Below are positions 1-35,085 of a stretch of DNA of 36,005 nucleotides, piece after piece; position 1 is the first letter of the stretch; every line of letters starts with the position of its first letter. The stretch covers positions 1 through 36,005 of IMG/VR virus record IMGVR_UViG_3300050821_007177, one strand, 5' to 3'. The notes beneath the pieces were generated by a model. It was given only the letters and a program-made list of their open reading frames with translations, made no database searches and was not told where the DNA came from. Made by a program: the position numbers and the translations under genes. Origin of the DNA: a virus.

Positions 1-98
1 CGGCGACGGGGTGGCTCATCAGCTTCACCGAGTCCGAAGGCAACGGTTTTCGCGCCGTCACCTACCGCAACCAGCCCGGCGGGACCGGTGACGTCTTC
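1..98. repeat. Left copy of 98-bp terminal direct repeat
   Basis: These 98 bases are identical to 35908-36005. The reading frame of the tail gene that leaves the right end is open and in register when joined here, so the two copies are one locus on a circular or permuted molecule. The repeat lies inside a coding region, which fits an assembly overlap better than a biological cos or terminal-repeat site. Confidence 0.95.
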
Positions 99-2771
99 AC
101 GAGCGTCTACGATTTGGCGACCGGCGAGGCAGTGTTCCTCAACTTCAAGGTAAGCACCGGGCAGCAATACCGGAGTCCCGTTTGCCACATCGTCGGCACG
201 AACCTCTACGTTTTCTACATGTGGGCCAACGGCGCGAACGACAACATCGTTGCGCGGGTACTCAACCTGACGACGATGACGTGGGGCGTGCAGACGAACG
301 TCGTCACGGACGCATTGCTGAACGCCAACTTTTATGACGTGACGCCTTATGTCGGCGGCACAGGTCTGCTCCTCTTCTATGTGCAAGATGGGGGCAGCGG
401 AGTGCAGAATGCCCGCGCCGCTCGGCTCGAGGCTCTGCCTGCGCTCACCGTCTCGGCGTCGTTCAACGTCCAGACGATTGCGACCGATGGCACCATCTCT
501 TACGCCGCTATGTGCTGCCGACATGATGCGGCGACAACGAATCGGGCGTGGTTTTTCTGGGAACAGTTCGGCGGCGGAGCCTACACGTTCGACGAAGCGG
601 CCTACGACGCGACGGCGTGGACCGCCATCGGGGCGCCGCCTTACCCGGTGACGTATACGGGCTACCTGGCGGCGCTGCGGGTCCCCGCGCTCGGCATCGA
701 GATCCTCTCCGCAACGCAGGCGCTGTTCACCTTTTGCATCCCGCAGACCGGCACGAACCCGAGCGTTGCCCATGCGGTCTACACATCGACCGGTGGCGCC
801 ATCGCCGCGCGCAGCTACCCGCTCGGTGAGTTCATCAGCCGGCCATTCCTCGCCACGATCAACGGAACGACGCGCTGCTACGTCATCTTCGCGATGTTCG
901 AACAGATCGTCCCTGGCGGCCCCTATTACACGACCTACTACCTCATGGACACGCGGGCCTACGACGCGGGCGGGTTCCCGCGCGTCGTCGCGACGCTGGC
1001 GCCGCGGCAAGGAAATAGCGCATACGTGCAAAACGCACAGTTCACGGATGGGCGCCCCGTCTACGGCTCCAACATCGGCCTACCGAACGCCGGCTCCTTC
1101 AGCTTCCCCGTCATCGTCAACCCAAGTGAGGAGTTCGCCAATCAGAGCGTGAGCACGATAGCCGCTCTCTTCGTCGACATCCTCACCTTCGACTTCACCG
1201 GTGCGACGACGTGGCAGGTGGCCGAGGGCGACAACGAAACCTTTTTGTCTGGCGGCGTGCCGAGCTTCTACGACGGCAACGGCGTCCAGGAGTGCAGCTT
1301 CTTCTCGTGGCCGACACCCGTCGGCAACCCGGTAGTCTCAACGACCGGCGGGTCTCTCGGCACTGGCCAGTACGGCTACGCATTCATCTGGGCGCAGGTC
1401 GACGACGCCGGGCGCATCCACCGCTCGGCGGCCTACACGGCGAACATCACAACGACCGCGGCTACGTCCTCGATGACGTGGACGTTCAACAACCTCCCGT
1501 ACACGGCCCGCTACCCGTCGCGGCAGGCGCCGGTGCTCGAGATGTATCGCACCGCAGTGAACGGCACGATCTATTACTACGTCGCCACGCTCGCCACGAA
1601 CGGGCTGGGGGGCGGAGCCATTGGTATCCTCGATACAGCATCGGACGCGTCGATCAACACGAACGCGCTCCTCTATACGACCGGCGGGGTCCTTGACTCG
1701 ATCTGTCCGCCCTCCGCACGCGCGATGTGGCGCCATCAGGCGCGCATCTGGATGATCGATGACACGGGTTACGTCCTCTGGTACACGACCGCGTTCAACG
1801 GAGCCGACGCGCCCTACTTCAATGAGGGACTGACGTACATCGTCTACGACGGGCCCCTGACCGCGGGCATCGCTCTCGACGACAAGAATTTCATTTTCTC
1901 CGCGACGCACATCTGGATGTTCACCGGCGACGGTCCGCCGCTCACCGGCCAGGGCAGCGACCTCTCGAGTCTCATCTCCATCCCGAGCGACGTGGGCGCC
2001 GCGGACTGGCGCAGCGTCGTCGTCTTCCCCGGCGGCATCCTCTTCCAAGCGCCGAGCAGCGGCGTCTACCAGCTCGGCCGCGACCTCGCGGTGACGTTCA
2101 TCGGCAAGGCCGTGCAGGACCTCACCGCAGGCAAGAGCGTCGTCGGCGCGCAGCTCGTCGCCAGCCAGAACCAGGTGCGGTTCCTCCTGAGCGACGGTTC
2201 GTCCCTCTCGTATGATTACGTCTTCGGGCGCTGGTCGCGGAACAGCTATGCGTACCCGCTGACGTGCTCGGCCTCGACGGGCGCGGGCGCATGGGTCGCG
2301 GGCGCGAGCGACGGGTTCGTCTACCAGGACAAGACCGCGGCCTCGACCAAGCCCTGGTACGACACGAAGTCCGGCGTGCACACGTGGATCACATCGAGCG
2401 TCACGACCGGCGACGTAAAGACACTGGGCCTACAGGGCTGGCTCGAGCTCGGGCCGGTCCAGGGCCTCGCGCCATGGCTCGACCCCTGCGACGTCACGAT
2501 GACGCTCACGTTCGACCACGGGCGCGCGACGCAGGCGCACACCTACGCGCACGCCGCGCTCGTCGCCGCGAACTCGCTTGAGGCGCAGTGGCAGCTCTGG
2601 CCGCAGGCGGCGAACGCCATCGCGGAGTCGGTCCGCATCACGGTGAGCGACGCGCCGGCCTCGGATGCGACCTCCGCGACCGGCCAGGGCGTTCGGTGGC
2701 TCGGCGTCGCGGTCGACGTCGCGCCCATCGGGCCGCGCAATTTGAATCTGTCGGCGAGCGTCAAGGCGTGA
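1..2771 (+). CDS. Tail nozzle/hub-like protein, C-terminal 923 residues
   Basis: This is the continuation of the gene that starts at 35559. Joined across the window ends it encodes about 1039 residues. The reading frame has codons starting at base 3 and ends at TGA 2769-2771. The protein is rich in Thr, Gly, Tyr and aromatic residues, without predicted membrane segments or coiled coils, as expected of a beta-rich virion protein. Its N-terminal part (35559 onward) carries the pattern 'G-G-[IV]-[DN]...N-G...K-D-G-G-V-R-K-R-x-G', reminiscent of podovirus tail nozzle/stabilisation proteins (T7 gp12 or P22 gp10 type). Its place directly after the adaptor-like gene and before the ejection-type proteins supports that role. 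The assignment rests on position and a weak motif; a tail-spike function is the main alternative. Confidence 0.6.
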   Translation, partial: ATGWLISFTESEGNGFRAVTYRNQPGGTGDVFTSVYDLATGEAVFLNFKVSTGQQYRSPVCHIVGTNLYVFYMWANGANDNIVARVLNLTTMTWGVQTNVVTDALLNANFYDVTPYVGGTGLLLFYVQDGGSGVQNARAARLEALPALTVSASFNVQTIATDGTISYAAMCCRHDAATTNRAWFFWEQFGGGAYTFDEAAYDATAWTAIGAPPYPVTYTGYLAALRVPALGIEILSATQALFTFCIPQTGTNPSVAHAVYTSTGGAIAARSYPLGEFISRPFLATINGTTRCYVIFAMFEQIVPGGPYYTTYYLMDTRAYDAGGFPRVVATLAPRQGNSAYVQNAQFTDGRPVYGSNIGLPNAGSFSFPVIVNPSEEFANQSVSTIAALFVDILTFDFTGATTWQVAEGDNETFLSGGVPSFYDGNGVQECSFFSWPTPVGNPVVSTTGGSLGTGQYGYAFIWAQVDDAGRIHRSAAYTANITTTAATSSMTWTFNNLPYTARYPSRQAPVLEMYRTAVNGTIYYYVATLATNGLGGGAIGILDTASDASINTNALLYTTGGVLDSICPPSARAMWRHQARIWMIDDTGYVLWYTTAFNGADAPYFNEGLTYIVYDGPLTAGIALDDKNFIFSATHIWMFTGDGPPLTGQGSDLSSLISIPSDVGAADWRSVVVFPGGILFQAPSSGVYQLGRDLAVTFIGKAVQDLTAGKSVVGAQLVASQNQVRFLLSDGSSLSYDYVFGRWSRNSYAYPLTCSASTGAGAWVAGASDGFVYQDKTAASTKPWYDTKSGVHTWITSSVTTGDVKTLGLQGWLELGPVQGLAPWLDPCDVTMTLTFDHGRATQAHTYAHAALVAANSLEAQWQLWPQAANAIAESVRITVSDAPASDATSATGQGVRWLGVAVDVAPIGPRNLNLSASVKA

Positions 2772-2792: not shown

Positions 2793-4355
2793 ATGGGTTA
2801 CGGCGGCGGCGTCTACAACAAGGACGGGGGCGCAAACTTCACCGGTGGCAATGGTGCGGGCCAGGGAAACCCCGCGCAGGGCTTCCAGCCTGGCGACAGA
2901 ACGACCGGCGCCTCTCCGATTCACTACGACGGTCTGCCATGGGGCGATCTCCAGCCAGGCACGAACGGGGGCCAAGTCCTACAGGGCGTCGGCGGCACCT
3001 GGCCGCAGGGACCGGGCAATCCATACGGCCAAGGCGTTGTGCCCGGCGTTCCCAGTGGGGCTGCGCCGCCACCGCCACCTGCGCCTCTCATCGGTGGAGT
3101 CCCCAACCCCGGCAACTACCAGTACAGCTCCAACTACGGCAACGCGAACCAGACCGAGGGCGCGTATGCGGGCATGGGAGCCGCCGCGCAGGGCCACGCC
3201 GCGCCGACCGTCGCCGATCCGCAGGGGCGCGTCGACCAGAGTCGCGCCGGCGGCGTGATGAACGGCTTCTCGAACGTCAACAACTACTACCAGGGCGTCT
3301 TGAACGGCACCGCGCCGAGCATGGCGCAGGCGCAGATGACCGCCTCGACCGACCAGGCGATCCGGGCGCAGGAGGCGATGGCGAATAGCGCCCGCGGTCC
3401 GCTTGCTGGCGCGCTCGCGGGGCGTGAGGCGGCGCAATCGGGGAACGTCGCGCTCCAGGACGCCGCGCAGAAATCGATGATTGGGCGCATCCAAGAGGAG
3501 CAGAATGCCGCGCAGGGTTACGGTCAGAACCTCGCGAACGAGGGTGGATTCTCGGCGACTGAGCAGGGCCTCAATCAAAATCTCGGCATCGAGCAGGCAC
3601 GGACGCAGGAGCAGCAAAACGCGCTCAACCAGGCCGGCGCACTCGGCTATGCGCAGCTCGGGCAGCAGACGTCGCTCGCGCAGCTCGGCGCCGGGAACGA
3701 CCTCACGAAGGCGCAGCTCGCGGAGCAGGGGCTCCAGCAGCAGGGCTCGCAGTTCCAGACCGGCCAGAACAACAACCTGCTGGCGGGCGCCATCGGCGCC
3801 GGCGCTGCGCTGCTCCCCCTCCTCGCCGCCGACGTGAAGATGCGCGACCCCGCGGGCGGAAGCGGCTTCACCCTCCGCGAGGAGCCCGACTTTATCGCCG
3901 TCCGGAATGACCGCACCGGCAAGCTCGGCAAGCTGCGCGTCGACCCGCTCGAGCCGCACGAGATGCAGCAAGCGCGCGCGCCGCACGGAGCCGACGCGCT
4001 CACTGGACCGATTGCCCACCCGCTTCCCATTCGCGACCCGCGCACCGGGAACCTCTTCGCCGCGGACCTCCCGCTCGCCGGCGTGGAGGACTCGCCGCAG
4101 CTCTCCGCCGCGATGCAGGGCGCGGTCGGTGCGCCGAACGCCTACGGCGCGTACACGCCCGACGCGGGAGCTCCCGGCGGCCTCGGCTCCGTGCTCGCCG
4201 GCAGCGACATGAACGCGGCGATTCGTGGCCTCGACCCCAAGACGCGCAAGGCGCTACTCGGCGCGTCGTCGTCGATGCTCCAGGGCGCGGCGCGGACCAT
4301 CGGCAGCAATCAGGCGCCGCCCGTCCCGAGCATGGCGAGTCTGCTCGGCGGCTGA
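2793..4355 (+). CDS. Gly/Gln/Ala-rich virion protein, possible ejection protein
   Basis: The 520-residue product is not recognised as a named family. Residues 1-120 are Gly/Pro/Asn-rich and probably disordered. Residues about 150-330 are Ala/Gln-rich and likely helical or coiled. A single hydrophobic segment (Leu/Ala/Gly-rich, about residues 330-347) follows, then a compact C-terminal region. It starts 21 bases after the nozzle-like gene and precedes two more large helical proteins, the place where short-tailed phages keep internal ejection proteins. A hydrophobic segment flanked by long helical stretches fits a protein that crosses or assembles in the host envelope at infection. Function is inferred from position. 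Confidence 0.7.
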   Translation: MGYGGGVYNKDGGANFTGGNGAGQGNPAQGFQPGDRTTGASPIHYDGLPWGDLQPGTNGGQVLQGVGGTWPQGPGNPYGQGVVPGVPSGAAPPPPPAPLIGGVPNPGNYQYSSNYGNANQTEGAYAGMGAAAQGHAAPTVADPQGRVDQSRAGGVMNGFSNVNNYYQGVLNGTAPSMAQAQMTASTDQAIRAQEAMANSARGPLAGALAGREAAQSGNVALQDAAQKSMIGRIQEEQNAAQGYGQNLANEGGFSATEQGLNQNLGIEQARTQEQQNALNQAGALGYAQLGQQTSLAQLGAGNDLTKAQLAEQGLQQQGSQFQTGQNNNLLAGAIGAGAALLPLLAADVKMRDPAGGSGFTLREEPDFIAVRNDRTGKLGKLRVDPLEPHEMQQARAPHGADALTGPIAHPLPIRDPRTGNLFAADLPLAGVEDSPQLSAAMQGAVGAPNAYGAYTPDAGAPGGLGSVLAGSDMNAAIRGLDPKTRKALLGASSSMLQGAARTIGSNQAPPVPSMASLLGG

Positions 4356-4356
4356 A

Positions 4357-4366
4357 CCGACAAATA
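4357..4366 (+). promoter_or_regulatory. CCGACAAATA motif in late gene gap, copy 1
   Basis: This A/T-containing decamer stands directly after the stop codon at 4355 and about 20 bases before the purine-rich stretch at the next start. The same decamer follows the stop codon at 9181. It could be a late promoter element or an RNA processing site. No start site can be read from sequence alone. Confidence 0.3.
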
Positions 4367-4389
4367 GGCCGCTGCGCCAGCATGAGAGG

Positions 4390-6135
4390 GTGCCCGACCC
4401 GAACCCGCTGAGCCTCGCGGAGATCCTCGCGCGGCAGGGGCTGACGCTGCCGCCGGACGGGGCTCAACCGCCCGCGCCGCCCCCTCCCGCTGCCCCGCCC
4501 TCGCTCGCGTCCGCGATGGCTGCGCAGGGCCTCCAGGCGCCTCCGGGTGCGCCTCCGCAGGCCGCTCCGCCCCCGTCGCCCTTCTCGCTCGTCCAGCCCT
4601 TCGCGCGGCCTGGAGCGGGCATCGCCTCGCCGCAGCCGCAGCCGAATCCGTTCGCGGGCCAGGTGCGGCAGCATCTCACCGATGCGGAGCTCGTCGACGA
4701 CATGGGGACCGGCGGCCGGCAGCACCTCCCCGGACCGGCGAAGGGCAAGCGCGACCTCTCCGAGCTCTCGTTTGCGAAGGGCGAGGCGGGGAGCGAATCC
4801 GACGCGGCGAAGCGCGCCGCGATCGCGCTGACGCCGCGCCTCCAGAACGTTCCGGCGACCGAGACGCCGCGGATCGCCCCCGGCCGCATCGCCGGCATCG
4901 AGGGGTCGCAGGCAGAGCAGGAGGCCGCCCTGCGCGACCTCGGGGCCGCCAACGTCCGCCAGACCGAGGACGCCGGCACCGCCGCCGCGCTCCACGGCAA
5001 GACGCTCGCCGACCAGAAGGCGGACATCGAGAAGAAGGCGGCCGACCGCGACACCTTCATCGCCGACCAGCAGGCGAAGATGGACAAGCTCTCCGCCGAC
5101 GTCGCGGAGCAGAAGATCGACCCGGACCGATGGTGGCACAACCAGAAGACCGGGTCGAAGATCGCCTACGCGATCGCGGCCGGGCTCGGCGGCTTCCTCG
5201 AAGGCTTCCGCGGCACCCCGAACCGCGCCATGGAGACGATCCGCAGTCACATCGACGCGGACATTTCGGCGCAGCGCGAGGCCATCGAATCGAAGAAGGG
5301 CCGCGTGAAGGACATGCAGGGCCTCCTCGCCGAGACCTACCGCCGCTTCGGGAATATGGAGCAGGCCGAGTCCGCGGCGCGAGCGATCGCGCTCCAGCAG
5401 GTCGACTCCGAGCAGCAGGCGTACGCGGCGAGTTCCGCGAGCGAAAAGGTGCAGGCGGAGTCGCGCGTGCAGAGCGCGCAGCTTCAGGAGGCGAAACAGA
5501 AGGAGCTCGCGGGGCTCTACGCGTACACGCCTGCGCACGCTGCCGTCAGCGGCCCGACGCTCGCCGACTACCGCAAGTACGCCGAACACTGGTCCATGAG
5601 CGATCAGAAGGTCCCGCTCATGGACTTCGGCGAATGGGCTCAGTCCGTGGCCGGCGGCGCAGGACACGGCGCAGCCGCCCCTCCGAACGGGACGCCCCAA
5701 GACCGCTACAAGAAATACGTCGATACCGTCGTCGAAAAGGGCGAGACGCCGCTCTCGCTCGACGAGTGGCAAAAGAAGACGAGCGGGGAGATCGCGACCG
5801 CGCCCGGCTCGTCCGTCCCCAAGCCCGAATCGACTGCTTGGAGCTGGACGCACGCCATTCCCGGCGGCCCTCCGCAGTCGAGCGACGCCTTCGCGAAAGA
5901 GATCGTTCACGCTCGCTACAACGCCGCGATGACGAAGGGCGTGCTCGACAAATACGGGCGCGGCGCCGAGCGCAATGAGGCGCTGATCGAGAAGCTACAG
6001 AAGGCCTACACGGTCAACCCCGGCGACACGCAGGAGACGATCGATCGCAAGACCGCTGCCGCGCAGGCCGACCTCGGGATGGCCGCATTCGGAGGGTCCG
6101 CGGCCAAGGTCGGCTTCACCCCCGGCGTGAAGTGA
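4390..6135 (+). CDS. Helical virion protein, possible ejection protein
   Basis: The gene encodes 581 residues from GTG 4390, chosen because coding-like sequence begins there. The frame is open upstream to 4225, but only as a shadow of the preceding gene. A purine-rich AGAGGG abuts the start, closer than a normal ribosome site, so the start is uncertain. Residues about 20-70 are Pro/Ala-rich and disordered. Residues about 215-400 are charged, Ala/Glu/Lys/Gln-rich and strongly helical, with a Trp-Trp pair near 250 and a Gly/Ala-rich helix behind it. The family is not recognised. The helical build and position between two other large proteins suggest an internal virion protein released with DNA. 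Its stop is one base before the next start. Confidence 0.7.
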   Translation: MPDPNPLSLAEILARQGLTLPPDGAQPPAPPPPAAPPSLASAMAAQGLQAPPGAPPQAAPPPSPFSLVQPFARPGAGIASPQPQPNPFAGQVRQHLTDAELVDDMGTGGRQHLPGPAKGKRDLSELSFAKGEAGSESDAAKRAAIALTPRLQNVPATETPRIAPGRIAGIEGSQAEQEAALRDLGAANVRQTEDAGTAAALHGKTLADQKADIEKKAADRDTFIADQQAKMDKLSADVAEQKIDPDRWWHNQKTGSKIAYAIAAGLGGFLEGFRGTPNRAMETIRSHIDADISAQREAIESKKGRVKDMQGLLAETYRRFGNMEQAESAARAIALQQVDSEQQAYAASSASEKVQAESRVQSAQLQEAKQKELAGLYAYTPAHAAVSGPTLADYRKYAEHWSMSDQKVPLMDFGEWAQSVAGGAGHGAAAPPNGTPQDRYKKYVDTVVEKGETPLSLDEWQKKTSGEIATAPGSSVPKPESTAWSWTHAIPGGPPQSSDAFAKEIVHARYNAAMTKGVLDKYGRGAERNEALIEKLQKAYTVNPGDTQETIDRKTAAAQADLGMAAFGGSAAKVGFTPGVK

Positions 6136-6136
6136 C

Positions 6137-9100
6137 GTGGCGACGCTCTACGACAAGAGCGGCAACCCGGTAGAGGTCCCGGAGGCCGACGTCCCCGACA
6201 AGCTCGCGTCCGGGGAGTTCGGCGTCCCGAAGGACCAGGCGCAGCACGTTTTCGACCCCAGCGGCCAGCTCGGGACCGTCCCGGGCGACAAGCTGCATGA
6301 CGCGCTGAAGGCCGGCTACCAGCTCGCGAGCGCAGACGACGTCGCCCGAGCGAAGCGCGCGGAGGAGTACGGCGGCGTGGGCGGCGGGCTGGCTGCGGCC
6401 GGCCTCGAGGGCCTCTCAACGGCGACCCTCGGCCTCTCCGACGTCGCCGGCTCGGCGATCGGCGGCGAAGGCTACAAGGAAGCGCGCAAGGGCTACCGCG
6501 AGGAGAACCCGAAGTCGACGCTCGCCGGCGGCCTCATTGGCGCCGTCGCTCCCATCGCGCTATCCGGCGGAGCTGCCGCCCCCGAGGAGGCCGCGGCGCT
6601 CGGCGGCGCCCGGCTGCTGAGCGAGGGGGCCGAGGTCGCGGAAGCGGGCAAGGGCCTCCTGGGCGGCGCCGGGACCGTCGCGAAGACGGCGGGGAAGGTG
6701 CTCGGTGCCCCCGCGGCAGGCGCCTCCAGGGCCGGCAGCGCGGTCGAGCGGATGGTCGGCGCGGCCCTGGGTGCCGACGAATCGACGAGCCTCGTGACGG
6801 GGCTGACAAAGCGCGCAATCGCCAAGGGTGCGGGCGCGGCGACGGAGGCGTCCATCTTCGGAGTCGGCCAGCAGCTCGGAGAGGATGCGCTCGGCGACCC
6901 GGACGCGAACGGAGAGAAGCTGTACGCCAGCGGCCTACACGGGGCACTGCTCGGGCTCGGGGCGGGGGTCGGGCTTTCGGCGCTCGGAGAGGTAGGCACG
7001 GCAGTCCTCGGCCGCGCGTCAACGACACTTTCGGGCATGGCCGAGAAGCAGGCCGTGCGCGCCGTGAACCTTCGGAAGGCGTTCGTAAAGGAGCTCGAGC
7101 GGCTCCCGGGCGGCGCGGAGGCAGCGGGACGACAGATACTCGACGACGGCGTGCTCAAGGCGGGGGATACCGTCGAAACGCTCGCGCCCCGGGTGAGCGC
7201 CGCGCGGACGGCCGCGGGCGAGAAGGTGACCGGCATCCTGGAGACTGCCGACAAGGCCGGACTCGAGGGGCCGCGGCTCGCTGAGCTCCGGCAGCAGATC
7301 CAGACGGAGGTCCTCGACCCGCTGCTCAAGATTCCGAAGACGAACGCGGGAGCGATCGCGAAGGTGCGCGGCATCCTCGATGACCTCGAATCGTTCGCGG
7401 GAGTCCCGGGCGAGCAGGCTGCCGCACGCGTGCACGCTCCGCCCGTCGACGAAGCGGCGGCGTCGCGGGAGCTCAATCGCATTGGCGGAGAGGAGTACGA
7501 ACTGCGCCAGGTTCCCATCAGTGCAGTGACCGACAACCGCGAAGTTTGGAGCCAAGAAAAACTAGCCGACGCAAAAACAAAACTCGCCTCGGGCAGTCCG
7601 ATGCTCGATCCGGATTTGTTCGCCCAAGCGAAGCAAATGGAAGTCCTCAAGGGGTCGGTGCCTGGGATGGCCCAGTTGCAGCGAGAATTGAAAATTGGCT
7701 ATGCCCGCGCGGCGCAGCTCAGGGAGGCTTTGAGCTCCGGGGAGGGCGCTTTGCCCAGCCAGCTTGAGCGTGTCGGTGGCGACAAGATGCCGCCCATCCG
7801 GCTCGCTGAGCACTACGAGGGCGAGGGCTATACGGTCGCCGATGGGATCCACCGCCTGAACGCGGCCGAGGCGGCTGGCTTCACGCACATCCCGGCCATC
7901 GTCGAGAAAACTGCACCGCGATTCGGTGAGCAGGGCGCGGGCGCCATTGACCGCAGCGTGCTCCTCGACAACGCGAAGCTCACCTTCCGCCAGGCGCAGG
8001 ACTTCCGCGGCACGATCGGGAAAAGCATCGAGTGGCGCGTCTCCCCCCTTGGCCCCGTCGACAAGGCGAACGAGGCGGCGAAGGACGTCTACCGTCTCAT
8101 CGAAAAGAACGTCGAGCAGACGGGCGAGAGGGCTGCAAAGGAGATGGGCGGCTCGTTCCTCGACGAGTACAAGCAGGCGAAGCTCGCCTACCAGCGCTAC
8201 ACGGTGCTCGACAAGGCGGCGCAGGACGCGCTCGCGGCGCGGACCGCGAATCGCATCGTCTCGCCGAGCGACTACGGCGTCGGCAGCGCCGTCGCGGCCG
8301 GCGCGATCGCCCATGCCGCGGCAGGTCCGGTCGGCGCCATCCTCGCCGGAGCAAAGGGGCTCGCCGCGTCAATGCTGCACCATGAGGTCCGCGAGCGCGG
8401 TAACTCCGCCGCGGCCGTCCTCCTCGACAAGCTCAGCGCCCTCCGCGGCGTCGAGCGCGCCGCCAAAGCCGTGGACCGCGAGATGGATCGCGGAATCGCT
8501 GGCATCCTGAAGGAGCCCGGCCGCGCCCCTCCGCGCGTCCGCGAGCTGCCGCAGGAGAACCATCCCTACCGTGCGCACGCCGAAGCCGCGATCCGTGCGT
8601 CCTCGGACATCGAGGCGCACGGCCAGCAAGTCGCCGCCGCAGCCGCGCCGCTTGCCCCGCACGCGCCCCGGACCGCGAACGCCTTCCAGTCGGTCGCCGT
8701 TCGCGCCGCGCAATACCTCGCCGCGCAGGCGCCGCACCGTCGCGGGCAGACGACGATCATGCCGCATCTCGACGAGCCGCGCATCTCGCAGACCGATGAG
8801 AAGAAGTACCTGCTCGTCGCGCACGCGGTCCACGACCCGGTGAGCGTCCTCCACGACATGGGCCAGGGCCGGGCGACGCGCGCGCAAATCGACGCGCTGA
8901 AGACGGTCTACCCGAAGCTCTACGGGGAGCTCGTGCAGCGGCTCCAGGAACGGCTCGCGGACCGCACGCAACCGCTCGCGTACGAGCAGCGGAAGCAGCT
9001 CGCGCTCCTCTTCGGCGCCGCCGCGGACCCCGCCGCCGCTCCCGCGTTCGTGGCGCGGATGCAAAAGGACTTCGCGCCCGCAGCGGGACCGGGCGGCGGC

Positions 9101-9181
9101 CCGAGCGGAGCGCCCCGAGGCGGCGCGCCGAAGCGGAAACTGTCGGGGCAATCGGACTCGCTGCGCCTGCCCGGAAGCTGA
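6137..9181 (+). CDS. Large ejection-type protein with ParB-like domain carrying an FtsK-gamma insert
   Basis: The gene encodes 1014 residues from GTG 6137; no clear ribosome site is visible, so translation is probably coupled to the gene ending at 6135. Residues about 75-300 hold several Gly/Ala-rich hydrophobic stretches. Residues about 455-600 form a ParB/sulfiredoxin-like fold: a 'VPISAV' strand near 457, then after an insertion an 'MPPIRL' strand and the signature DGIHR at 569-573 followed by an Ala-rich helix and an 'IPAIV' strand. The insertion, about 487-545, resembles the FtsK gamma winged helix (DPDLF near 491, IGYARAA at 520-526). Beyond 600 the chain is helical, with another Gly/Ala-rich hydrophobic hairpin near 720-750. 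ParB-like domains are known in phage polyvalent and MuF-type proteins; the role here is inferred. Confidence 0.75.
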   Translation: MATLYDKSGNPVEVPEADVPDKLASGEFGVPKDQAQHVFDPSGQLGTVPGDKLHDALKAGYQLASADDVARAKRAEEYGGVGGGLAAAGLEGLSTATLGLSDVAGSAIGGEGYKEARKGYREENPKSTLAGGLIGAVAPIALSGGAAAPEEAAALGGARLLSEGAEVAEAGKGLLGGAGTVAKTAGKVLGAPAAGASRAGSAVERMVGAALGADESTSLVTGLTKRAIAKGAGAATEASIFGVGQQLGEDALGDPDANGEKLYASGLHGALLGLGAGVGLSALGEVGTAVLGRASTTLSGMAEKQAVRAVNLRKAFVKELERLPGGAEAAGRQILDDGVLKAGDTVETLAPRVSAARTAAGEKVTGILETADKAGLEGPRLAELRQQIQTEVLDPLLKIPKTNAGAIAKVRGILDDLESFAGVPGEQAAARVHAPPVDEAAASRELNRIGGEEYELRQVPISAVTDNREVWSQEKLADAKTKLASGSPMLDPDLFAQAKQMEVLKGSVPGMAQLQRELKIGYARAAQLREALSSGEGALPSQLERVGGDKMPPIRLAEHYEGEGYTVADGIHRLNAAEAAGFTHIPAIVEKTAPRFGEQGAGAIDRSVLLDNAKLTFRQAQDFRGTIGKSIEWRVSPLGPVDKANEAAKDVYRLIEKNVEQTGERAAKEMGGSFLDEYKQAKLAYQRYTVLDKAAQDALAARTANRIVSPSDYGVGSAVAAGAIAHAAAGPVGAILAGAKGLAASMLHHEVRERGNSAAAVLLDKLSALRGVERAAKAVDREMDRGIAGILKEPGRAPPRVRELPQENHPYRAHAEAAIRASSDIEAHGQQVAAAAAPLAPHAPRTANAFQSVAVRAAQYLAAQAPHRRGQTTIMPHLDEPRISQTDEKKYLLVAHAVHDPVSVLHDMGQGRATRAQIDALKTVYPKLYGELVQRLQERLADRTQPLAYEQRKQLALLFGAAADPAAAPAFVARMQKDFAPAAGPGGGPSGAPRGGAPKRKLSGQSDSLRLPGS
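7500..7936 (+). other. Encoded ParB-like domain interrupted by FtsK-gamma-like module
   Basis: This stretch encodes residues about 455-600 of the 1014-residue protein. The ParB-like halves flank a central segment matching the FtsK gamma pattern: an Asp-Pro start, a helix, LQRELKIGYARAAQL, then a wing. FtsK gamma domains read short skewed DNA motifs (KOPS). From about 7540 to 7770 codon use shifts toward A/T-ending codons (AAA, GAA, TTG, GAT), unlike the flanking sequence. This suggests recent acquisition of at least the insert and the adjoining strand. Confidence 0.6.
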
Positions 9182-9220: not shown

Positions 9221-9649
9221 ATGGGCGAATCCGAACAGACGCGGCAAGCCGACTTCGTTGTGTGTCCACGAGCGAGCCTCATCGCCTCGCTCGCCGTCTC
9301 GAACGTCGCCGCCTCGCAGGACCTCTCGCTCATCGACAGTCAGGCGAAGGATCCGAGCGACGCCGACAAGCTCGGACTGGGTCTCATCGGCTGCTACGTG
9401 ACCTTCCTCGCGGACGGCGGCGACGTCTACATCATCACGGGGCCATCGCAGGCGAGCGTAACGGCGGGCAACGTCCCCGTCGTCGCAACCAACGGCGTCA
9501 ACGCGGTCGGCGTCTGCTGGAAGCTCCCCGCGAACATCCCGACCCCCTACAAGGTCACCGCGCAGGACCGCTGGCTCGGATACATCTCCGCGAGCGGAAC
9601 GCCGCAGCTCCGAATTCAGCGATCGAGTCCCTACCCGCAGGCGTGCTGA
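9221..9649 (+). CDS. Small virion-associated protein, unknown
   Basis: The 142-residue product starts at ATG 9221 behind GAAGGG. It is Val/Ala/Gly-rich with alternating hydrophobic residues suggesting a beta sandwich, and has no signal peptide or membrane segment. Similar small all-beta proteins serve as capsid or tail decoration in many phages. The family is not recognised. Its place between the ejection-type proteins and a lectin-like protein suggests a tail or surface component. Confidence 0.65.
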   Translation: MGESEQTRQADFVVCPRASLIASLAVSNVAASQDLSLIDSQAKDPSDADKLGLGLIGCYVTFLADGGDVYIITGPSQASVTAGNVPVVATNGVNAVGVCWKLPANIPTPYKVTAQDRWLGYISASGTPQLRIQRSSPYPQAC

Positions 9650-11984: not shown

Positions 11985-12214
11985 AGCTCGGGCTCGCCAT
12001 CGTCGGCGCGGGCCTGCTCGCCTCCTGCGCCGCCTACCAGCCGCGCGAGTTCGTGTCGTACCCACACCAAGTCGGCGCGCAGGAGTACCACCGCTGCACG
12101 AACGGCAACTGGTGCGCCGAGGGCTACTCCTGCTCGCGGTTCGGGTGCGAATGGTGCGGGGGCGGGTCGCAGACGCCGTGTCAGACGGCGGGGGCGGACA
12201 ACCTGATTCCCTAG
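11981..12214 (+). CDS. Cys-rich lipoprotein at end of lysis cassette
   Basis: The 77-residue protein starts at ATG 11981 (ATGA overlap with the lysozyme). The signal peptide ends in a classic lipobox, LASC, with Cys16 as the lipidated residue. The mature part ends in a compact cluster of seven cysteines (pattern C-x5-WC-x4-YSC-x4-GC-x-WC-x6-C). This may form disulfides outside the cell or bind metal. Similar Cys clusters occur in predicted lipoproteins of myxobacteria. It may be an o-spanin substitute, or a moron gene expressed late or in the lysogen. The TAG stop shares a CTAG palindrome with the stop of the convergent gene. Confidence 0.65.
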   Translation: MKLGLAIVGAGLLASCAAYQPREFVSYPHQVGAQEYHRCTNGNWCAEGYSCSRFGCEWCGGGSQTPCQTAGADNLIP

Positions 12215-12990
12215 GCCGCCTCGACCTCTTCGCCGTCGATCGTCACCCGCGGCGCCTCGTCCTCCAAGTCCCACGGCACTTCGCACTGGATGTAGCTGGG
12301 CCACGAACCCGTCGCCTCGCACGAGAGAAGCCGCTCCATCCAGATCCGGCAAAGCTTCTCGCCCACGAGCAGCGTCCGCGGCGAGAGCGTCAACGTCGTC
12401 ACCGCGAAAGGCGGCGTCGTCTCGACGGCGATGATGCGCGCGCTCCGGACCGTGACCCCTACCGCCGCCGCGGCCCGGACGTAGAACGCGAGCTGCGCGT
12501 GGTAGCCCATCTTCGTGCAGAGGCGCGTGAGGAGCTCCGGCTCCGCGTTCGTCGTCGTCTTCACGTCGACGATGTGTCCGTCGCCGAGCACGTCCAGGCG
12601 CGAGCTGCATGCGCGGTCCTGGTACTCCCAGAGGATGGTCCGCTCGTGCTCGCCAATGAGCCAAGGGGCCGCGATCGGATCGTTCCGGACCGCCGCGGCG
12701 ACGAGGCGTGCGCGGTCAAGCTCCTCCGGCTTGATGATGAGCGTGTCTCGGTCCTGCTTCGCCTCGAACGCCTTGTACGCGTTGCTGTTGCGCGACCCGT
12801 CGAAGACGGCGTAGTAGCAGCCGCCGAGCAGCAGCGCGTGCACGAGCGAGCCGAAGCGCATCGGCGCCGTGGGCTTGAGGCGGCGCTCGACGGCGACGCG
12901 GTAGTGCGCAGCGCTCCGGGCGATGTACTTCAGCGATGAGATGTGGACGTAGCCGTCGCCGAGCTTCGGAATGCCGTTCTCACGCGCCAT
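12211..12990 (-). CDS. PD-(D/E)XK exonuclease (RecE/YqaJ-like)
   Basis: The protein is 259 residues from ATG 12990, with GGAGG seven bases upstream. Longer frames upstream are shadows. Nuclease features appear in order: 'RFGSLVHALLL' (His51) for the first helix; Asp133 in 'SSRLDVL'; 'HIVDVKTT' with Asp142 and Lys144 as the D-x-K core; then 'YHAQLAFY' with Gln166. This is the arrangement of phage exodeoxyribonucleases of the RecE/lambda-exo/YqaJ superfamily, which resect double-strand ends for recombination. It is the last gene of the leftward early operon and overlaps the gene before it by 11 bases. No neighbour is a recognisable annealase. Confidence 0.8.
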   Translation of the reverse strand: MARENGIPKLGDGYVHISSLKYIARSAAHYRVAVERRLKPTAPMRFGSLVHALLLGGCYYAVFDGSRNSNAYKAFEAKQDRDTLIIKPEELDRARLVAAAVRNDPIAAPWLIGEHERTILWEYQDRACSSRLDVLGDGHIVDVKTTTNAEPELLTRLCTKMGYHAQLAFYVRAAAAVGVTVRSARIIAVETTPPFAVTTLTLSPRTLLVGEKLCRIWMERLLSCEATGSWPSYIQCEVPWDLEDEAPRVTIDGEEVEAA

Positions 12991-13510
12991 GGGTCGCCTC
13001 CGTTCCTTCCTCGAACTCACTTCGCCCGAACGCCTGATCCATCCGGTCGGCCGCCGCGTCGTCGACCGGCTTCTCGAGCGGGTCGCTGGTCGGCTCCTCG
13101 CCGGGGATCGTGTTGCGGACGCGGATGCCGCCCACGCGCGCGCCGGACATCTCGACGGAATGGTCCACGTAGATTCGGATTTTCTTTCCGATCCACTCCT
13201 CGAGATTCTTGCCGTGGAGCTTCGCGATCGCGTCCTGCGACACGGGCCCCGCGATCCACCGCTTCCGCTTGCCGGCGAACGTGATGAGGTACTTGTTATT
13301 GACCTCGTCCTTGTACGTTCCGTCCGGCTGCTTGCGCTTGCGGATGATGTCGGGTCGGTAGAACTCGACCGCTTCGATGACAACGACGGGCTCGATGTAC
13401 CGATGGTCCGCGGTCTGCAAGTCCCACTGCCCGAGGTAGTCCGACGCCTGCTTGCGCCATTTCTTGTAGTGCGTGCGCCCTTTCGAGGACGCGTCGACTC
13501 GTTCCGCCAC
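12980..13510 (-). CDS. Recombination-associated protein, probable ssDNA-binding type
   Basis: The product is 176 residues from GTG 13510, chosen for GGAGG about 6 bases upstream; the frame is open further but without coding character. The core carries 'KYLITFAGKRKRWI', 'EEWIGKKIRIY' and 'VGGIRVR' (about residues 73-132). This beta-rich pattern is common in uncharacterised phage proteins that sit beside recombination nucleases. The alternation of strands around W-x-G-K and the acidic C-terminal tail suggest an OB-like ssDNA-binding protein, by inference. It could partner the exonuclease encoded next. Confidence 0.65.
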   Translation of the reverse strand: MAERVDASSKGRTHYKKWRKQASDYLGQWDLQTADHRYIEPVVVIEAVEFYRPDIIRKRKQPDGTYKDEVNNKYLITFAGKRKRWIAGPVSQDAIAKLHGKNLEEWIGKKIRIYVDHSVEMSGARVGGIRVRNTIPGEEPTSDPLEKPVDDAAADRMDQAFGRSEFEEGTEATHGA

Positions 13511-18564: not shown

Positions 18565-18828
18565 ATGACTCTCGCCGTCACCCTCAGCGTCGAAGAACTG
18601 TCCGCGCTCGTCCGCAAGGCCGTCCGCGAGGAGCTCCAACCCGCGCAAGCCGCCGCGCCCGAAGTGCTGACGCGCGAGCAGGCCGCGAAGATGCTCTCGC
18701 TCCACCCGAACGTGCTGACGCGCTGGGTGCAGAAGCGGGGCGTGCCCGGCGTGAAGATTGGGGGGGAGTGGCGGTTTTTGCGGACGGACCTTATCGCGTG
18801 GATCGCGGCGCAGAAGAAGGGGGCCTGA
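18565..18828 (+). CDS. Excisionase-like HTH protein
   Basis: The 87-residue protein has a MerR/HTH_17-type domain at residues 35-80: 'VLTREQAAKMLSLHPNVL' in part, a turn, 'KRGVPGVKIGGEWRF' and 'DLIAWIAAQ'. This is the family annotated as excisionase or helix-turn-helix DNA-binding. It ends one base before the integrase start, so the two are co-translated. The pairing suggests control of integration direction, comparable to the small gene upstream of int in Mx8. Confidence 0.8.
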   Translation: MTLAVTLSVEELSALVRKAVREELQPAQAAAPEVLTREQAAKMLSLHPNVLTRWVQKRGVPGVKIGGEWRFLRTDLIAWIAAQKKGA

Positions 18829-18829
18829 C

Positions 18830-20485
18830 ATGGCCGTCGTCGCCCGCAAGCGCCAGCACGGCGTCACCTACTACGTCACCTTCTTTTGGAACGACAAGAA
18901 GCAGTGGGAGCGCGCGGGCTCGGACCGGCGCGAAGCGAAGCGGCTCAATAAGCGGCGCCTCGAGGAGGTCGAAGCGGGGACCTACCGCCCGCGGAACCTG
19001 ACACGCCGGCCGACGGTCGCCGAGTTCGCCGCCGAGTGGCTCCCGCGCCGAGCGAACCGCACGGCCGCCGGCGACGCGGTCTGGCTCCGGGACTACGTGC
19101 TGAACCGCGAGTGGTTCGCGGGCCTCCGCGTCGAGGACGCCCAACCGAGGCACATCATCCAGCTCGTGACGGAGCTCAAGACCGCCTGGAGCAAGCGGTT
19201 CAAGCGGACGATCTCGGGACACTCCGTCTCGAACATCTACGGCGTCGTGAGCGTCATGTTTCGAGACGCGTTCATCGAGGGCCTAGTAAAGGCGAACCCC
19301 TGCGTACTTCCAGACGGATTGATCCAGCGCCGGACGAAGAAGCCTCGTGCGCCATACAGCCTCGACTCGATCGCGCAGCTCCTCCGATGCCCCGACGTCC
19401 ACCCGACCGCGCGCGTCTTCTCGGCGCTCGCGCTCCTCACCGGGATGCGGGAAGGGGAGGTATGCGGCCGGCGGTGGAAAGACTGGGACCGTGGGTCCTC
19501 GCCGCTCGGCTGCCTCACGGTGGACTGTCAGTACGACGGCCAACCTCTGAAGGGCGACCGGGACGAGATCGGAGAGGTGGCGCGCAAGGTGCCGGTCCAT
19601 CCGGAGCTCGCGCGCGTGCTCGAGTGGTGGCAGTCGCAGGGTTTCGCATTGGTACATCGGTGCCACCCCAGCCCTGAGAGCTACATCGTCCCGAACAAGG
19701 ACGGCGAGTGCTACGGCCGCTCCGCCGCGTACGCCCTCTTCCAGCGTGCGCTCGGCAAGGCCGGCGTCGCCAACCTCTCCCTCCATGCGACTCGGCACAC
19801 CTTCCTCACCCTCTGTCGTCGCGGCGGCGCGCGGAAGGAAGTCATCGAGCGCGTCACCCACAACGCGTCAGGAGACACGGTGGACCAATACACACACTGG
19901 GACTGGGGTCCCCTCTGCGAGGCGGTCATGTGCTTTGGCATTTCGAGTTCAGGTGGTGATGGTGGTGGTGATGTCGGCACGAACGGCAGCCGACTACTCG
20001 TGGCCCCTCCGGGACTTGAACCCCGACCACCGGACGGGACTGCGCGAAACTACTCGGATGCGCCTCCCCTCTCCCTCGAGGGAGAATTTGCAGATTCCTC
20101 GAGAAATAGGGCCCTAGTTGCGGCGGAGGGCGCCGCGCGTCAGCAGGATTTCAAAAGCCGAGCGGGGAGCCACCCGAAACACGCATGGGACGGGGGCGAC
20201 GATCCGTGTGAGGAAAGACGCGCGGCGGAGCAGTCGGCCGTCGCGAAGGGTCGGCACGGGGATGCATCGGCCTCCCGTGTCGCACCCGCGTTCGCCGCGT
20301 TCGCCGACCTTCGCGCTGAGCGTCGGCTCTCGCTCGACGACCCCGCGACGCTCGCCGCGATGGACGACCGCGTCCTCGGAAGCATCGCGCGGGCGGTGTC
20401 GGTGCAGATGTGGAGACCGAGGACGACGGCGCGCGAGCGCGCGTTCCGGGCGCAGGCTTGGCTACATCTCACGAGGGCGGCGTGA
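18830..20485 (+). CDS. int: Tyrosine integrase with attP inside its 3' part
   Basis: The protein is 551 residues from ATG 18830. Residues 1-60 form the arm-binding N-terminus, about 60-150 the core-binding SAM-like domain and about 175-370 the catalytic domain, with Arg207 (TGMREGE), His319 and Arg322 (HATRH), His344 and the nucleophile Tyr354 (VDQYTHWDW). Normal integrases end near 390. Here the frame continues 160 residues through a tRNA-3'-end-like sequence (20001-20023, residues about 391-398) to TGA 20483-20485. Integration at that site would swap the C-terminal tail for host-encoded residues, as established for IntP of Mx8. The last 90 residues have good codon bias, so the tail may be functional or derived from a separate gene. 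Confidence 0.88.
   Translation: MAVVARKRQHGVTYYVTFFWNDKKQWERAGSDRREAKRLNKRRLEEVEAGTYRPRNLTRRPTVAEFAAEWLPRRANRTAAGDAVWLRDYVLNREWFAGLRVEDAQPRHIIQLVTELKTAWSKRFKRTISGHSVSNIYGVVSVMFRDAFIEGLVKANPCVLPDGLIQRRTKKPRAPYSLDSIAQLLRCPDVHPTARVFSALALLTGMREGEVCGRRWKDWDRGSSPLGCLTVDCQYDGQPLKGDRDEIGEVARKVPVHPELARVLEWWQSQGFALVHRCHPSPESYIVPNKDGECYGRSAAYALFQRALGKAGVANLSLHATRHTFLTLCRRGGARKEVIERVTHNASGDTVDQYTHWDWGPLCEAVMCFGISSSGGDGGGDVGTNGSRLLVAPPGLEPRPPDGTARNYSDAPPLSLEGEFADSSRNRALVAAEGAARQQDFKSRAGSHPKHAWDGGDDPCEERRAAEQSAVAKGRHGDASASRVAPAFAAFADLRAERRLSLDDPATLAAMDDRVLGSIARAVSVQMWRPRTTARERAFRAQAWLHLTRAA
19993..20056. repeat. Direct repeat ACTACTCG flanking the attP core
   Basis: The octamer ACTACTCG occurs at 19993-20000, directly against the tRNA-like core, and again at 20049-20056. 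It may be an integrase or excisionase arm site. Eight bases is short, so chance cannot be excluded. Confidence 0.3.
20001..20023 (-). other. attP: attP core candidate, tRNA 3'-end-like
   Basis: Read on the minus strand, this is a tRNA T-arm and acceptor end: GGG, loop TTCAAGT, CCCGG, AGGGGCC and A. The acceptor half predicts a host tRNA beginning GGCCCCT. The T-stem pairs except at position 50, where the phage sequence probably leaves tRNA identity. No 5' half of a tRNA is present, so this is an attachment core rather than a gene. It lies within int. Confidence 0.7.
20070..20085. repeat. Perfect 16-bp palindrome downstream of attP core
   Basis: TCTCCCTCGAGGGAGA is a perfect palindrome about 47 bases past the core. 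It may be a protein-binding site for the integration complex, and could form a hairpin in the int mRNA. Confidence 0.4.
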
Positions 20486-26239: not shown

Positions 26240-26643
26240 GGAAGGAGCAACTCTCCGTCCTCGAAGGCGGCAACGAGGGCCCCACCTGCGACCTCTGCGC
26301 CCTCGGCCTCTACCTCGGCCAGGGCCGCGACGTCGAGGTCAAGCGGGCGACGCGCGAGTACATGGCGACGCTCCCCGGGCGGATCACGCTCTGCACGTCG
26401 CACCGCGAAGACGTCGAAGCGCTCGGCGTCACGACGGGACCCGTGCTCCAGGACGCGGAGAAGCCGGCGCTCTCGCGGAAGAACCGGCGGGCGATTCAGG
26501 CGCTACAGCGGCGAGCGCATCGGAGGAGCTTGCCCGGCGGCAAACCCGGCGACGGCGGCCGAGCGACGCGACTGCCCGGTTCCGGCGACACCGGCTACCC
26601 GTTCGACCCCGAGGACAACGGCGGTGGCGGCATCACCCTCTGA
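26236..26643 (+). CDS. Unknown protein upstream of large terminase
   Basis: The product is 135 residues from GTG 26236 (GTGA). Near the N-terminus 'CDLCALGLYLGQG' gives a Cys pair, and 'LCTSHREDVE' adds Cys and His for a possible zinc site. The C-terminal 50 residues are Gly/Arg/Pro-rich. It overlaps the terminase start by 20 bases, so the two are translationally linked. Confidence 0.55.
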   Translation: MRKEQLSVLEGGNEGPTCDLCALGLYLGQGRDVEVKRATREYMATLPGRITLCTSHREDVEALGVTTGPVLQDAEKPALSRKNRRAIQALQRRAHRRSLPGGKPGDGGRATRLPGSGDTGYPFDPEDNGGGGITL

Positions 26644-28033
26644 GCTGGAGGCCGAGCTCCGCGCCCGCGTCGACCGGGAGCTCAAGCGCCGCGAGTCCGA
26701 GCGCCGCAACTGGGTCCCGCACGAGCCGTTCGCGAAGCAGCGCGCGTTCATGGGCCTCGAGTGCAAGGAGGCGCTCTACGGCGGGGCGGCCGGCGGAGGT
26801 AAGTCCGACACGCTTCTCATGGACGCGGCGCAGTTCTGCCACCTGCCCGGATTCGGCGCCCTCATCCTGCGGCGGACCCACTCGGAGCTCATCCTGAAGG
26901 GTGCGCTGATGGATCGCTCGCAGGAGTGGTTCTCGAACACGCCCGTCCACTGGAACGGCGACGAGAAGCGCTGGACGTGGCCGAGCGGAGCCACCATCGA
27001 GTTCGGCTACTTCGACACATGGGGAGACCGTGGCCGGTACCAATCGGCGGCATGGAACCGCATCTACTTCGACGAGCTGACGCACTTCCCCGAGGACTGG
27101 TACCGATTCATGTTCACGCGGATCCGCCGCGTCGCCGGCTTCCCGGTCGCGAGCGGGATGCGTTCCGCCACGAACCCGGGCCACCTCGGGCATAAGTGGG
27201 TGTTCTCGCGGTTCGTCGACAGCAAGAAAGACGGCCGCGTATTCGTCCCCGCGACCTTCCGCGACAACCCCTTCATCGACCAGACCGACTACGAGCAGCA
27301 GCTCGCGGAGGCGCCGGACATCACGCGCCGGCAGATGCTCGGCGAATGGGTCGACGATGGCGTGGGGCGCGTCTACCCCGGCTTTGAAGAGACTCGAAAC
27401 TGCATCGACAAGAAGCCCGACGAGGGTGAGTGGTCCTACATCCTTGCGATCGATTTCGGCATCATCAACCCGAACGCCTTCACGGTGCTGGGCTGGCGCA
27501 AGCACGAGCAGACGGTCTACGTCCTCGAGAGCTATCGGAAGAAGGGCGACCCGATCGACGTGGCTGACGAGGTCGCGGCGCTCGAGCGGCGCTACAAGTT
27601 CGACCGCATCATCGGCGACGTCGGCGGCATGGGGAAGGCGTTCGCCGAGCTGATGATCGAGCGCTTCTCAATTCCGGTCGAAGCGGCCGACAAGCACAAC
27701 AAGAACGGCTTCATCCAGCTCCTGAACGGCGACCTCGCGAAGGGGCGCATCCTCGTCGTACGCGACCGATGCCGCGACCTCATCGCCGAATGGGGCGCGC
27801 TCGCATGGGCGGAGAGCGGCCAGAAGGAAGCGCCGGGGCCGAATCACGCCGCGGACTCGTGCCTCTACGGGTATCGCGCGGCGATGGCGTTCTCCGAGCG
27901 GACGGCGACTCCCGTCAATCGGCGCACGCGCGAGGAGCAAATCGCCGAAGATACCCGGCGGGCGTGGGAGGAGACGGAGCGGGAGATCAAGGCGGGGAAG
28001 CGCGAGGAGCGGGAGGAGTTTGGGTATGAGTAG
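26624..28033 (+). CDS. terL: Terminase large subunit
   Basis: It encodes 469 residues from GTG 26624. The ATPase domain has Walker A 'GGAAGGGKS' (53-61) and Walker B 'IYFDE' (147-151), with Asp150/Glu151. The RNase H-like nuclease domain shows Asp277 in 'AIDFG', Asp332 in 'GDVGG' and Asp411 in 'NHAADS', the metal-binding acidic residues. It pumps DNA into the prohead through the portal and cuts the concatemer. Length and architecture are normal for tailed-phage large terminases. It is followed by an ATG start inside its last codons (28026). Confidence 0.93.
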   Translation: MAASPSELEAELRARVDRELKRRESERRNWVPHEPFAKQRAFMGLECKEALYGGAAGGGKSDTLLMDAAQFCHLPGFGALILRRTHSELILKGALMDRSQEWFSNTPVHWNGDEKRWTWPSGATIEFGYFDTWGDRGRYQSAAWNRIYFDELTHFPEDWYRFMFTRIRRVAGFPVASGMRSATNPGHLGHKWVFSRFVDSKKDGRVFVPATFRDNPFIDQTDYEQQLAEAPDITRRQMLGEWVDDGVGRVYPGFEETRNCIDKKPDEGEWSYILAIDFGIINPNAFTVLGWRKHEQTVYVLESYRKKGDPIDVADEVAALERRYKFDRIIGDVGGMGKAFAELMIERFSIPVEAADKHNKNGFIQLLNGDLAKGRILVVRDRCRDLIAEWGALAWAESGQKEAPGPNHAADSCLYGYRAAMAFSERTATPVNRRTREEQIAEDTRRAWEETEREIKAGKREEREEFGYE

Positions 28034-31900: not shown

Positions 31901-33139
31901 ATGGGTCTCAATTTCGACATCACGGCCGCCACGCCGATTCTCAAGAATCGGTACACCGACAAGAAGATCGAGACGCTGGCGTTTAGTTCGCCGACGCTCG
32001 CCAAGTTCCCGAAAAAGACGGACGGAGGCGGACTCCAGTACGTCGGCGCGATCCGCAACGCCGTGACCTCCGCGGTCAGCGCGTCGGACACCATCGCCTT
32101 CACGACCGGCTCCGCGAGCGTCTACCAGCAATGGCAGTGCCCGTGGAAGTACGCCTACGCGAGCGGAAACCTGACGGGCGCCGCGATCGACCAGGCGAAC
32201 GGCGACATGGACTCGCTCGTCGAGTCGATGACGTCGGAGTTCGACGGCATGTTCATCGCGCTCGGCATCCACGCCGGCGCCGCGCTCTTCGGCAACGGCG
32301 GGGGGGCGATCGGGCAGTTGAACGGTGGCGCGGTCGCCGCGCTGACGGTCACGCTCCTGAACCCGTCGCTCATCGTCAATTTCTACGTCGGACAGCTCAT
32401 TCAAGCCTCGTTCGACGACGGGACCGGGGGCGGCGGAACGCGCTCGGCCGGCGCGACGCAGACGCTCACCGGCGTCGACGTCAACCTCGGCACGCTCACC
32501 GCGGCCTCCAACTGGTCGACGGCAATCGCTGCGATCGGCGTCTCGGACTTCCTCTTCAACCAGGGCGACTACAACGCGAAGTTCGCGGGGCTCGCCGGGT
32601 GGATCCCCGACACGGCCCACCGCGCGAATCTGAACGTCGCGTTCAACAACGTCGTGCGCTCGACCGACCCGGTTCGGTTGGCCGGCGTCGCCTACAACGG
32701 CAAGGGCGCTCCGAAGTCGGAGACCTTCATCCAGACCGCGGCCCTCGTCGGTCGCATGGGCGGCAAGCCCGACCTCCTCGTCACGAACCCGCTCGACTAC
32801 GCGGACGTCGTCAAGGAGCTCTCCACCCGCGTCATCTACACGACCGAGCAGGCGTTCGCGAATCCGGACATCGGCTTCCCCGGCGTCAAGGTCGCGACGC
32901 AGTACGGCAACATCACGATCGTCGCGGACCCGTTCTGTCCGCAGGGCAACGCGTGGCTGCTCACCACGGCCACGTGGCTCCTCATCTCGATGGGCAAGCT
33001 CCCCAAGGTGCTCGGCGCGGGCATCGACGGGCAGGAGTGGCTGCGCAACGCGGGCGCGGACTCCTACCAGCTCCGCGGCGCGTACCGGGCCACGACCTAC
33101 TGCACGGCGCCGGGCCATAACGGCTCGATGCTCTTCTAG
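31901..33139 (+). CDS. Major capsid protein
   Basis: The protein is 412 residues from ATG 31901, with GAGGG about nine bases upstream. It opens 'MGLNFDITAATPILKNRYTD', contains long mixed alpha/beta stretches, and ends 'GAYRATTYCTAPGHNGSMLF'. Its position after the scaffold and its length suit an HK97-fold coat protein. 'LLVTNPLDYADVVKELSTR' and the following strands are compatible with the A-domain. The family is not named from memory, so the call rests mainly on gene order, size and the structured leader that suggests high expression. Confidence 0.8.
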   Translation: MGLNFDITAATPILKNRYTDKKIETLAFSSPTLAKFPKKTDGGGLQYVGAIRNAVTSAVSASDTIAFTTGSASVYQQWQCPWKYAYASGNLTGAAIDQANGDMDSLVESMTSEFDGMFIALGIHAGAALFGNGGGAIGQLNGGAVAALTVTLLNPSLIVNFYVGQLIQASFDDGTGGGGTRSAGATQTLTGVDVNLGTLTAASNWSTAIAAIGVSDFLFNQGDYNAKFAGLAGWIPDTAHRANLNVAFNNVVRSTDPVRLAGVAYNGKGAPKSETFIQTAALVGRMGGKPDLLVTNPLDYADVVKELSTRVIYTTEQAFANPDIGFPGVKVATQYGNITIVADPFCPQGNAWLLTTATWLLISMGKLPKVLGAGIDGQEWLRNAGADSYQLRGAYRATTYCTAPGHNGSMLF

Positions 33140-35047: not shown

Positions 35048-35085
35048 AGGCGAACACTAACACGCTGCGATGCGGGAGCCCAGTA

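Follow-up and report, generated by a model that had tools for sequence, protein, structure and literature searches.

A predicted FtsK-gamma-type helix-turn-helix nested within a ParB/sulfiredoxin-like fold of a probable phage internal virion protein

The DNA analysed here, referred to as the window, is the IMG/VR viral record IMGVR_UViG_3300050821_007177 over its whole length of 36,005 bases, with a GC content of 68%. In addition to genes for packaging, head formation, integration and recombination, it contains near its left end a block of five consecutive genes, g1 to g5, the fourth of which (g4) encodes a protein of 1014 aa and is the subject of this study. The positions of all features are compiled in the table below. 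As the g3 frame overlaps g2, the true start of g3 is probably located downstream of 4225. At either end of the record, an open frame continues past the last base (1-2771 and 35070-36005). The two do not join in frame, nor was a terminal repeat of 12-79 bases found in the record, which is therefore probably incomplete and not circular. Among named phages, the stretches most similar to the terminase were those of the methanogen viruses psiM2/psiM100 (39% over 65%) and PhiF3 (44% over 45%), which is an unusual affinity given a podovirus-type genome of 68% GC.

Table. Genes of the window and parts of the g4 cassette, with the evidence for each assignment.
Feature	Position	Strand	Evidence
g1, neighbour; internal virion protein by homology	3..2771	+	PHROG match of G001 homologue; synteny
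g2, virion-block neighbour	2793..4355	+	weak G001 homologue in the same order
g3, virion-block neighbour	4225..6135	+	homologues adjoin g4 in G1169 (E 7e-7) and G1513 (E 3e-15)
g4, probable internal virion (ejection) protein with cassette, 1014 aa	6137..9181	+	open frame; N- and C-terminal homology and gene order common to G001, G002, G1169 and G1513
ParB/Srx and FtsK-gamma cassette, aa ~436-607	7442..7957	+	no detectable counterpart in homologues
ParB/Srx N half: strand 1 (YELRQVPISAV), box-I-like Arg (TDNR, R468), helix 1 (SQEKLADAKTKLASG)	7472..7594	+	weak in-register profile alignment; model strands; VIA alignments to ParB, Noc and Srx
Insert, aa ~487-550, with FtsK-gamma-type helix-turn-helix	7595..7786	+	Arg-to-ProPro spacing; pLDDT 80-97 over helices
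PF09397 FtsK_gamma match, aa 493-533, profile 5-44 of 63; recognition helix KIGYARAAQLREALSS	7613..7735	+	profile match; structural match to 2ve8_D, 2ve9_F and 2j5p
ParB/Srx C half: MPPIRL strand, DGIHR motif (7841-7855), helix 2, last strand	7787..7927	+	phage ParB-like profile; PF02195; pLDDT 80-91
g5, small gene 3' of g4, order kept	9221..9649	+	G001 homologue directly after g4
RecE-like exonuclease	12211-13383	minus	
Integrase	18758-20485		
Terminase	26624-28033		
Portal	28900-30807		
Major head protein	31901-33139		

Related phages were found through an alignment of the terminase, and homologues of g4 were identified in two of them (G001 and G002) as well as on contigs of two further genomes (G1169 and G1513). 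Both ends of g4 and the order g1-g3-g4 are kept among these homologues, and g5 is also found in G001, whose g1 homologue matched PHROG 511, 'internal virion protein' (E 1.1e-6). This gene order and the PHROG match of the neighbour suggest that the g4 product is packaged and ejected. The first-pass annotation had regarded g4 as a virion protein that is ejected; its location in a virion-structure block beside a gene of the internal-virion type stood, while packaging and ejection are probable from this genomic setting. The middle of the g4 protein varies among the homologues. The homologous stretches that flank it are 34 residues apart in G002 vs. 211 in g4, no ParB_N match was obtained in G001-G003, and no cassette was visible on reading the G1169 and G1513 proteins. 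The g4 cassette, of about 170 residues, thus has no detectable counterpart in the four homologues, a very diverged one being possible.

Within the cassette, the segment 7500-7936 corresponds to aa 455-600 of the open reading frame 6137-9181, its sequence and coordinates being as originally annotated, and the part that precedes DGIHR had been described as FtsK-gamma-like. This was borne out by a match of the FtsK_gamma profile (PF09397) to the whole g4 protein (E 2e-5, 24.6 bits), together with the structural match described below. In slices of 178 and 60 aa, both picked after this match was known, the profile scored 27.4 bits and 30.4 bits (E 3.1e-7), respectively, the latter just below the Pfam cut-off of 30.6. 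The matched profile positions comprise the three-helix part of the domain without its wing, and the PDB sequences closest to this part of g4 were solved FtsK gamma domains. Like these domains (PF09397; 2j5p, 2ve8, 2ve9), the g4 insert has the three-helix core that includes LQRELKIGYxRAA. Unlike them, it is devoid of the wing in both the profile match and the structure model, it is nested in another domain, and it is not accompanied by a motor, as a profile search of the whole g4 protein revealed no FtsK/SpoIIIE motor domain.

The sequence on the C-terminal side of the insert (PPIRLAEHYEGEGYTVADGIHRLNAAEAAGFTHIPAIV) resembles a large group of ParB-like domains from phages, and also the ParB-like domain of a plasmid methylase, which is uninterrupted. 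Against a profile built from 46 phage ParB-like domains, this C half scored 28.2 bits, compared to a maximum of 7.4 in 500 shuffles; the match to PF02195 (ParB_N) was weak (E 0.0059 on a slice of the protein). The N half alone reached 0.6 bits with the 46-domain profile, which is not significant (shuffles: mean -0.8, maximum 6.1). Its alignment is gapless and falls at the exact profile positions preceding the C half, and T, R and G are spaced as in ParB. Further, the distance from the conserved Arg to Pro-Pro is 84 residues in g4 vs. 22 in 38 of the 43 ParB-like relatives, and therefore approximately 62 residues are inserted in the ParB-like domain of g4. An independent, uninterrupted ParB-like relative (L319) carries QVPI at strand 1, where g4 has RQVPI, and is 48% identical to the C half of g4 over 42 residues. 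This protein, from a genome in the class of G026, combines an N-terminal part of beta-lactamase-fold/RNase-J-like type, as read from its sequence, with the ParB-like domain at its C-terminus.

With regard to the motifs expected in such a fold, g4 contains the nucleotide-binding-type Gx(H/R)R motif (DGIHR, aa 569-573), and the box-I Arg, R468, is in register. In sulfiredoxin, the catalytic Cys belongs to a GCHR motif. A sulfiredoxin identity was rejected, since g4 reads GIHR where this Cys would sit. The protein shares with the ParB/Srx superfamily (PF02195), and especially with the DGFHR ParB-like domains of phages and plasmids, the PPIxVxxxxGxxYxxADGxHRxxAA half, the box-I-like Arg and the order of strands and helices. 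The members of the comparison set of DGFHR domains are stand-alone or fused to N6/N4 methylases (L002, L020-L022, L239-L318); g4 differs from its relatives in that 62 residues are inserted after helix 1 and before strand 2, and in being a protein of a virion block.

The fold of the cassette was then modelled with AlphaFold2. A single-sequence model of the segment was unusable (mean pLDDT 47). For a second model, an alignment with 7 rows from FtsK gamma domains and 23 from ParB C halves was employed; as it included no N-half rows, the N half was modelled as an open test in which the answer was not imposed. With plain MAFFT, the N halves of ParB had been aligned to the gamma segment, or else the ParB rows had been misplaced, and the rows were trimmed until gamma and C-half rows stood in register. 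The resulting model had a mean pLDDT of 74 and a pTM of 0.46, with pLDDT values of about 80 for the N strands, about 61 for helix 1, 80-97 for the insert helices and 80-91 for the C half. Its elements follow the ParB order, beta1-alpha1-[insert, three helices]-beta2-beta3-alpha2-beta4, and a single ParB/sulfiredoxin sheet is built from both sides of the insert. The insert itself was modelled with high pLDDT as three helices (H54-67, H73-80 and H84-95), and no strands of a C-terminal beta wing follow the recognition helix, where the pLDDT drops to about 44 (model residues 100-109).

When this model was compared with solved structures by Foldseek, the best matches were ParB, Noc and sulfiredoxin. 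VIA-align superimposed it on ParB/Noc with Z 7.7 from model residues 17/18 to 158-165, a range that includes sequence to either side of the insert, and on the Pseudomonas aeruginosa FtsK gamma domain 2ve8_D over 48 residues with 33% identity (model residues 50-99; Z 4.8, rmsd 2.1 A). The tool's own note rates Z values below 8 as middling, and those obtained here agree with the sequence evidence. The first-pass annotation had proposed an FtsK module nested in a ParB fold, to be examined by structure prediction and comparison with FtsK gamma and ParB/Srx domains, and the AlphaFold2 model, Foldseek and VIA-align upheld this proposal: both folds were matched, and a helix-turn-helix was modelled, without the wing. 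In the model, the helix-turn-helix lies inside the ParB fold; in partition ParB, which comes with a partner parA and parS sites, it follows the N-terminal domain.

These data also bear on another arrangement, in which an FtsK-gamma-like helix-turn-helix would stand beside an incomplete, C-terminal part of a ParB-like domain, with the segment upstream serving as a linker. Such an arrangement would fit the lack of a significant profile score for the upstream half and the tendency of MAFFT to put the ParB N half on the gamma segment. We nevertheless consider it very unlikely, since strand 1 and helix 1 were modelled from the upstream segment in the absence of relatives there, the structure alignments extend over the sequence before and after the insert, the upstream half keeps exact register, its T, R and G being spaced as in ParB, and QVPI at strand 1 is common to the uninterrupted relative L319. 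From the gamma match, the spacing of the insert and a modelled sheet that spans it, g4 is predicted to hold a helix-turn-helix of the FtsK gamma type within a ParB/Srx fold.

No full-length relative of the segment or of the whole g4 protein was detected by direct searches of viral contigs, genome contigs, phages and plasmids. The nested cassette was not found in any other protein, and a single sequence thus underlies the proposed arrangement. A joint DNA pattern (GYxRAA, PP and DGxHR) was present in 8 viral stretches and in at least 118 genome stretches; 16 in-frame readings of it, among the matches listed, included none resembling the cassette. Several candidate relatives were discarded: a Chlorohelix methylase that appeared to span gamma and ParB parts proved to be an uninterrupted ParB-like domain, L320 is a cellular FtsK, and L319 has the uninterrupted domain described above.

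We also investigated whether the insert has the properties of a reader of KOPS, the function originally ascribed to it. In Escherichia coli FtsK, KOPS recognition needs N1296, R1300 and E1303 (PMC2533119) and also E1306 (PMC2680272). The residues of g4 aligned to these positions are A523, Q527, E530 and S533, respectively, so that only E1303 is kept. Among 11 other viral FtsK gamma modules, the Asn is kept in all 11 and position 1303 is mostly acidic. Ala is found at the Asn position in a cellular acidobacterial FtsK (L320) too, and Gln at the Arg position in a gamma module encoded on a Vibrio plasmid. Since both substitutions occur in other FtsK gamma modules, a different motif could be read by g4. 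The KOPS sequence GGGNAGGG was not enriched in the genome (6 sites vs. 5.3 expected) and showed no strand bias there, with 3 sites per strand.

Canonical KOPS reading by g4 is thus not supported, and the original proposal of a KOPS-type reader did not hold, with three of the four KOPS residues differing, the wing not being in the model and the motif being neither enriched nor biased towards one strand. Under this proposal, the insert would bind skewed octamers of the FtsK kind, in phage or host DNA, and would thereby orient or target the ParB-like domain. Although FtsK gamma is the best family match of the insert, E1303 is retained and the Asn-to-Ala change, also present in the acidobacterial FtsK, makes a variant motif possible, we regard it as highly improbable in view of these three observations.

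The same losses of KOPS residues and wing could instead indicate that the cassette is a passenger, namely the decayed remnant of a gene of the ParB-methylase or partition type that the protein acquired in its variable middle and that currently has no function. Its lineage-specific occurrence and the variability of the middle among homologues would be consistent with such an origin. However, the frame of the cassette is open and its third-position GC is like that of the neighbouring genes, and the box-I Arg, DGIHR and the core of the recognition helix are kept, which makes a passenger quite improbable.

Another possibility is that the cassette anchors the genome, holding the phage's own DNA in the capsid, e.g., at the first-leaving end, and aiding packaging or ordered ejection with no enzymatic role. 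A DNA-binding module within a probable internal virion protein would suit this role, and FtsK_gamma is fused to the small terminase in the Bacillus phages Sam46/Sam112 (PMC8190038). However, a counterpart of the cassette was undetected in the four syntenic homologues, which argues against a core packaging or ejection function, and an anchor does not need an NTP-binding motif. We consider an anchoring role somewhat unlikely.

We favour, with moderate confidence, a cassette that binds DNA and NTP within an internal virion protein and acts on DNA at ejection as a switch or nickase, without reading canonical KOPS. The protein would be an internal virion (ejection) protein of the podovirus type, with the cassette of about 170 residues in its variable middle. 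Inserted between helix 1 and strand 2 of the ParB/Srx fold, the helix-turn-helix suggests DNA binding and may supply it to the cassette, and the retention of the box-I Arg and DGIHR suggests that the fold may bind NTP. The fold could then serve as a switch, or it could nick DNA as a nuclease, while ejection is under way or shortly afterwards, with catalysis, timing and target all being putative. ParB-like domains of phage-injected polyvalent proteins have been proposed to be NTP-regulated nicking DNases (PMC5512222), and a survey of ParB-CTPase folds describes binding of CTP, ATP or GTP in diverse fusions (PMC12704722). A more specific version, in which the nested helix-turn-helix of an ejected enzyme recognises a particular non-KOPS motif and is coupled via the ParB/Srx fold to an NTP switch or a nick in the DNA of host or phage at the very start of infection, seems unlikely to us.

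Compared to known systems, g4 resembles the DdrB-like ParB domains of polyvalent proteins (PMC5512222) in having a ParB-like domain in a large phage protein that is encoded beside virion genes and proposed to be injected. That family is marked by an Asp/Asn in strand 2 and by an additional helix bearing a conserved Tyr. The g4 protein differs from these domains in lacking a Pfam-level match to a family of this kind and in the helix-turn-helix nested in its ParB fold; no peptidase, lysozyme or other polyvalent domain was found in g4 at the Pfam level. With the small terminase of Sam46/Sam112 (PMC8190038), g4 shares the re-use of an FtsK_gamma module in a phage protein. In that terminase, by contrast, the module is N-terminal, in tandem fusion to a terminase domain and with conserved DNA-binding residues, it is not nested, and the protein is not an internal virion protein.

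Other settings of the gamma module were encountered in the sequences examined. FtsK_gamma occurs alone in phage genes. Viral RdgC, a recombination-associated protein, with a C-terminal FtsK_gamma was found in L010, L015 and L018 (RdgC E 1e-83 to 6e-114; FtsK_gamma E 3e-20 to 5e-23) and partly in L012, where the RdgC match is weaker, and the module is placed at the N-terminus of a DUF5906 phage protein in L009:4182-5903 and L011. The Vibrio module, which like g4 carries Gln in place of the KOPS Arg, is a small stand-alone FtsK gamma protein (L004:3992-4207). It is encoded by a Vibrio alginolyticus plasmid of 38.7 kb, under the label 'DNA translocase FtsK'.

Many domain fusions of the ParB-CTPase fold in phages are described in the survey mentioned above; the words FtsK and insert are absent from its main text (PMC12704722). 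Each of the parts of g4, including ParB in ejected proteins, is already known, and no precedent was found for the nesting of a helix-turn-helix of the FtsK gamma type within a ParB fold, so this arrangement looks new. It would make the FtsK gamma helix-turn-helix an insertable part that a probable ejection protein uses within a nucleotide-binding fold of the ParB/Srx type. Should the cassette prove active after ejection, it would offer a small, testable model for a virion protein that couples DNA binding to a nucleotide switch.
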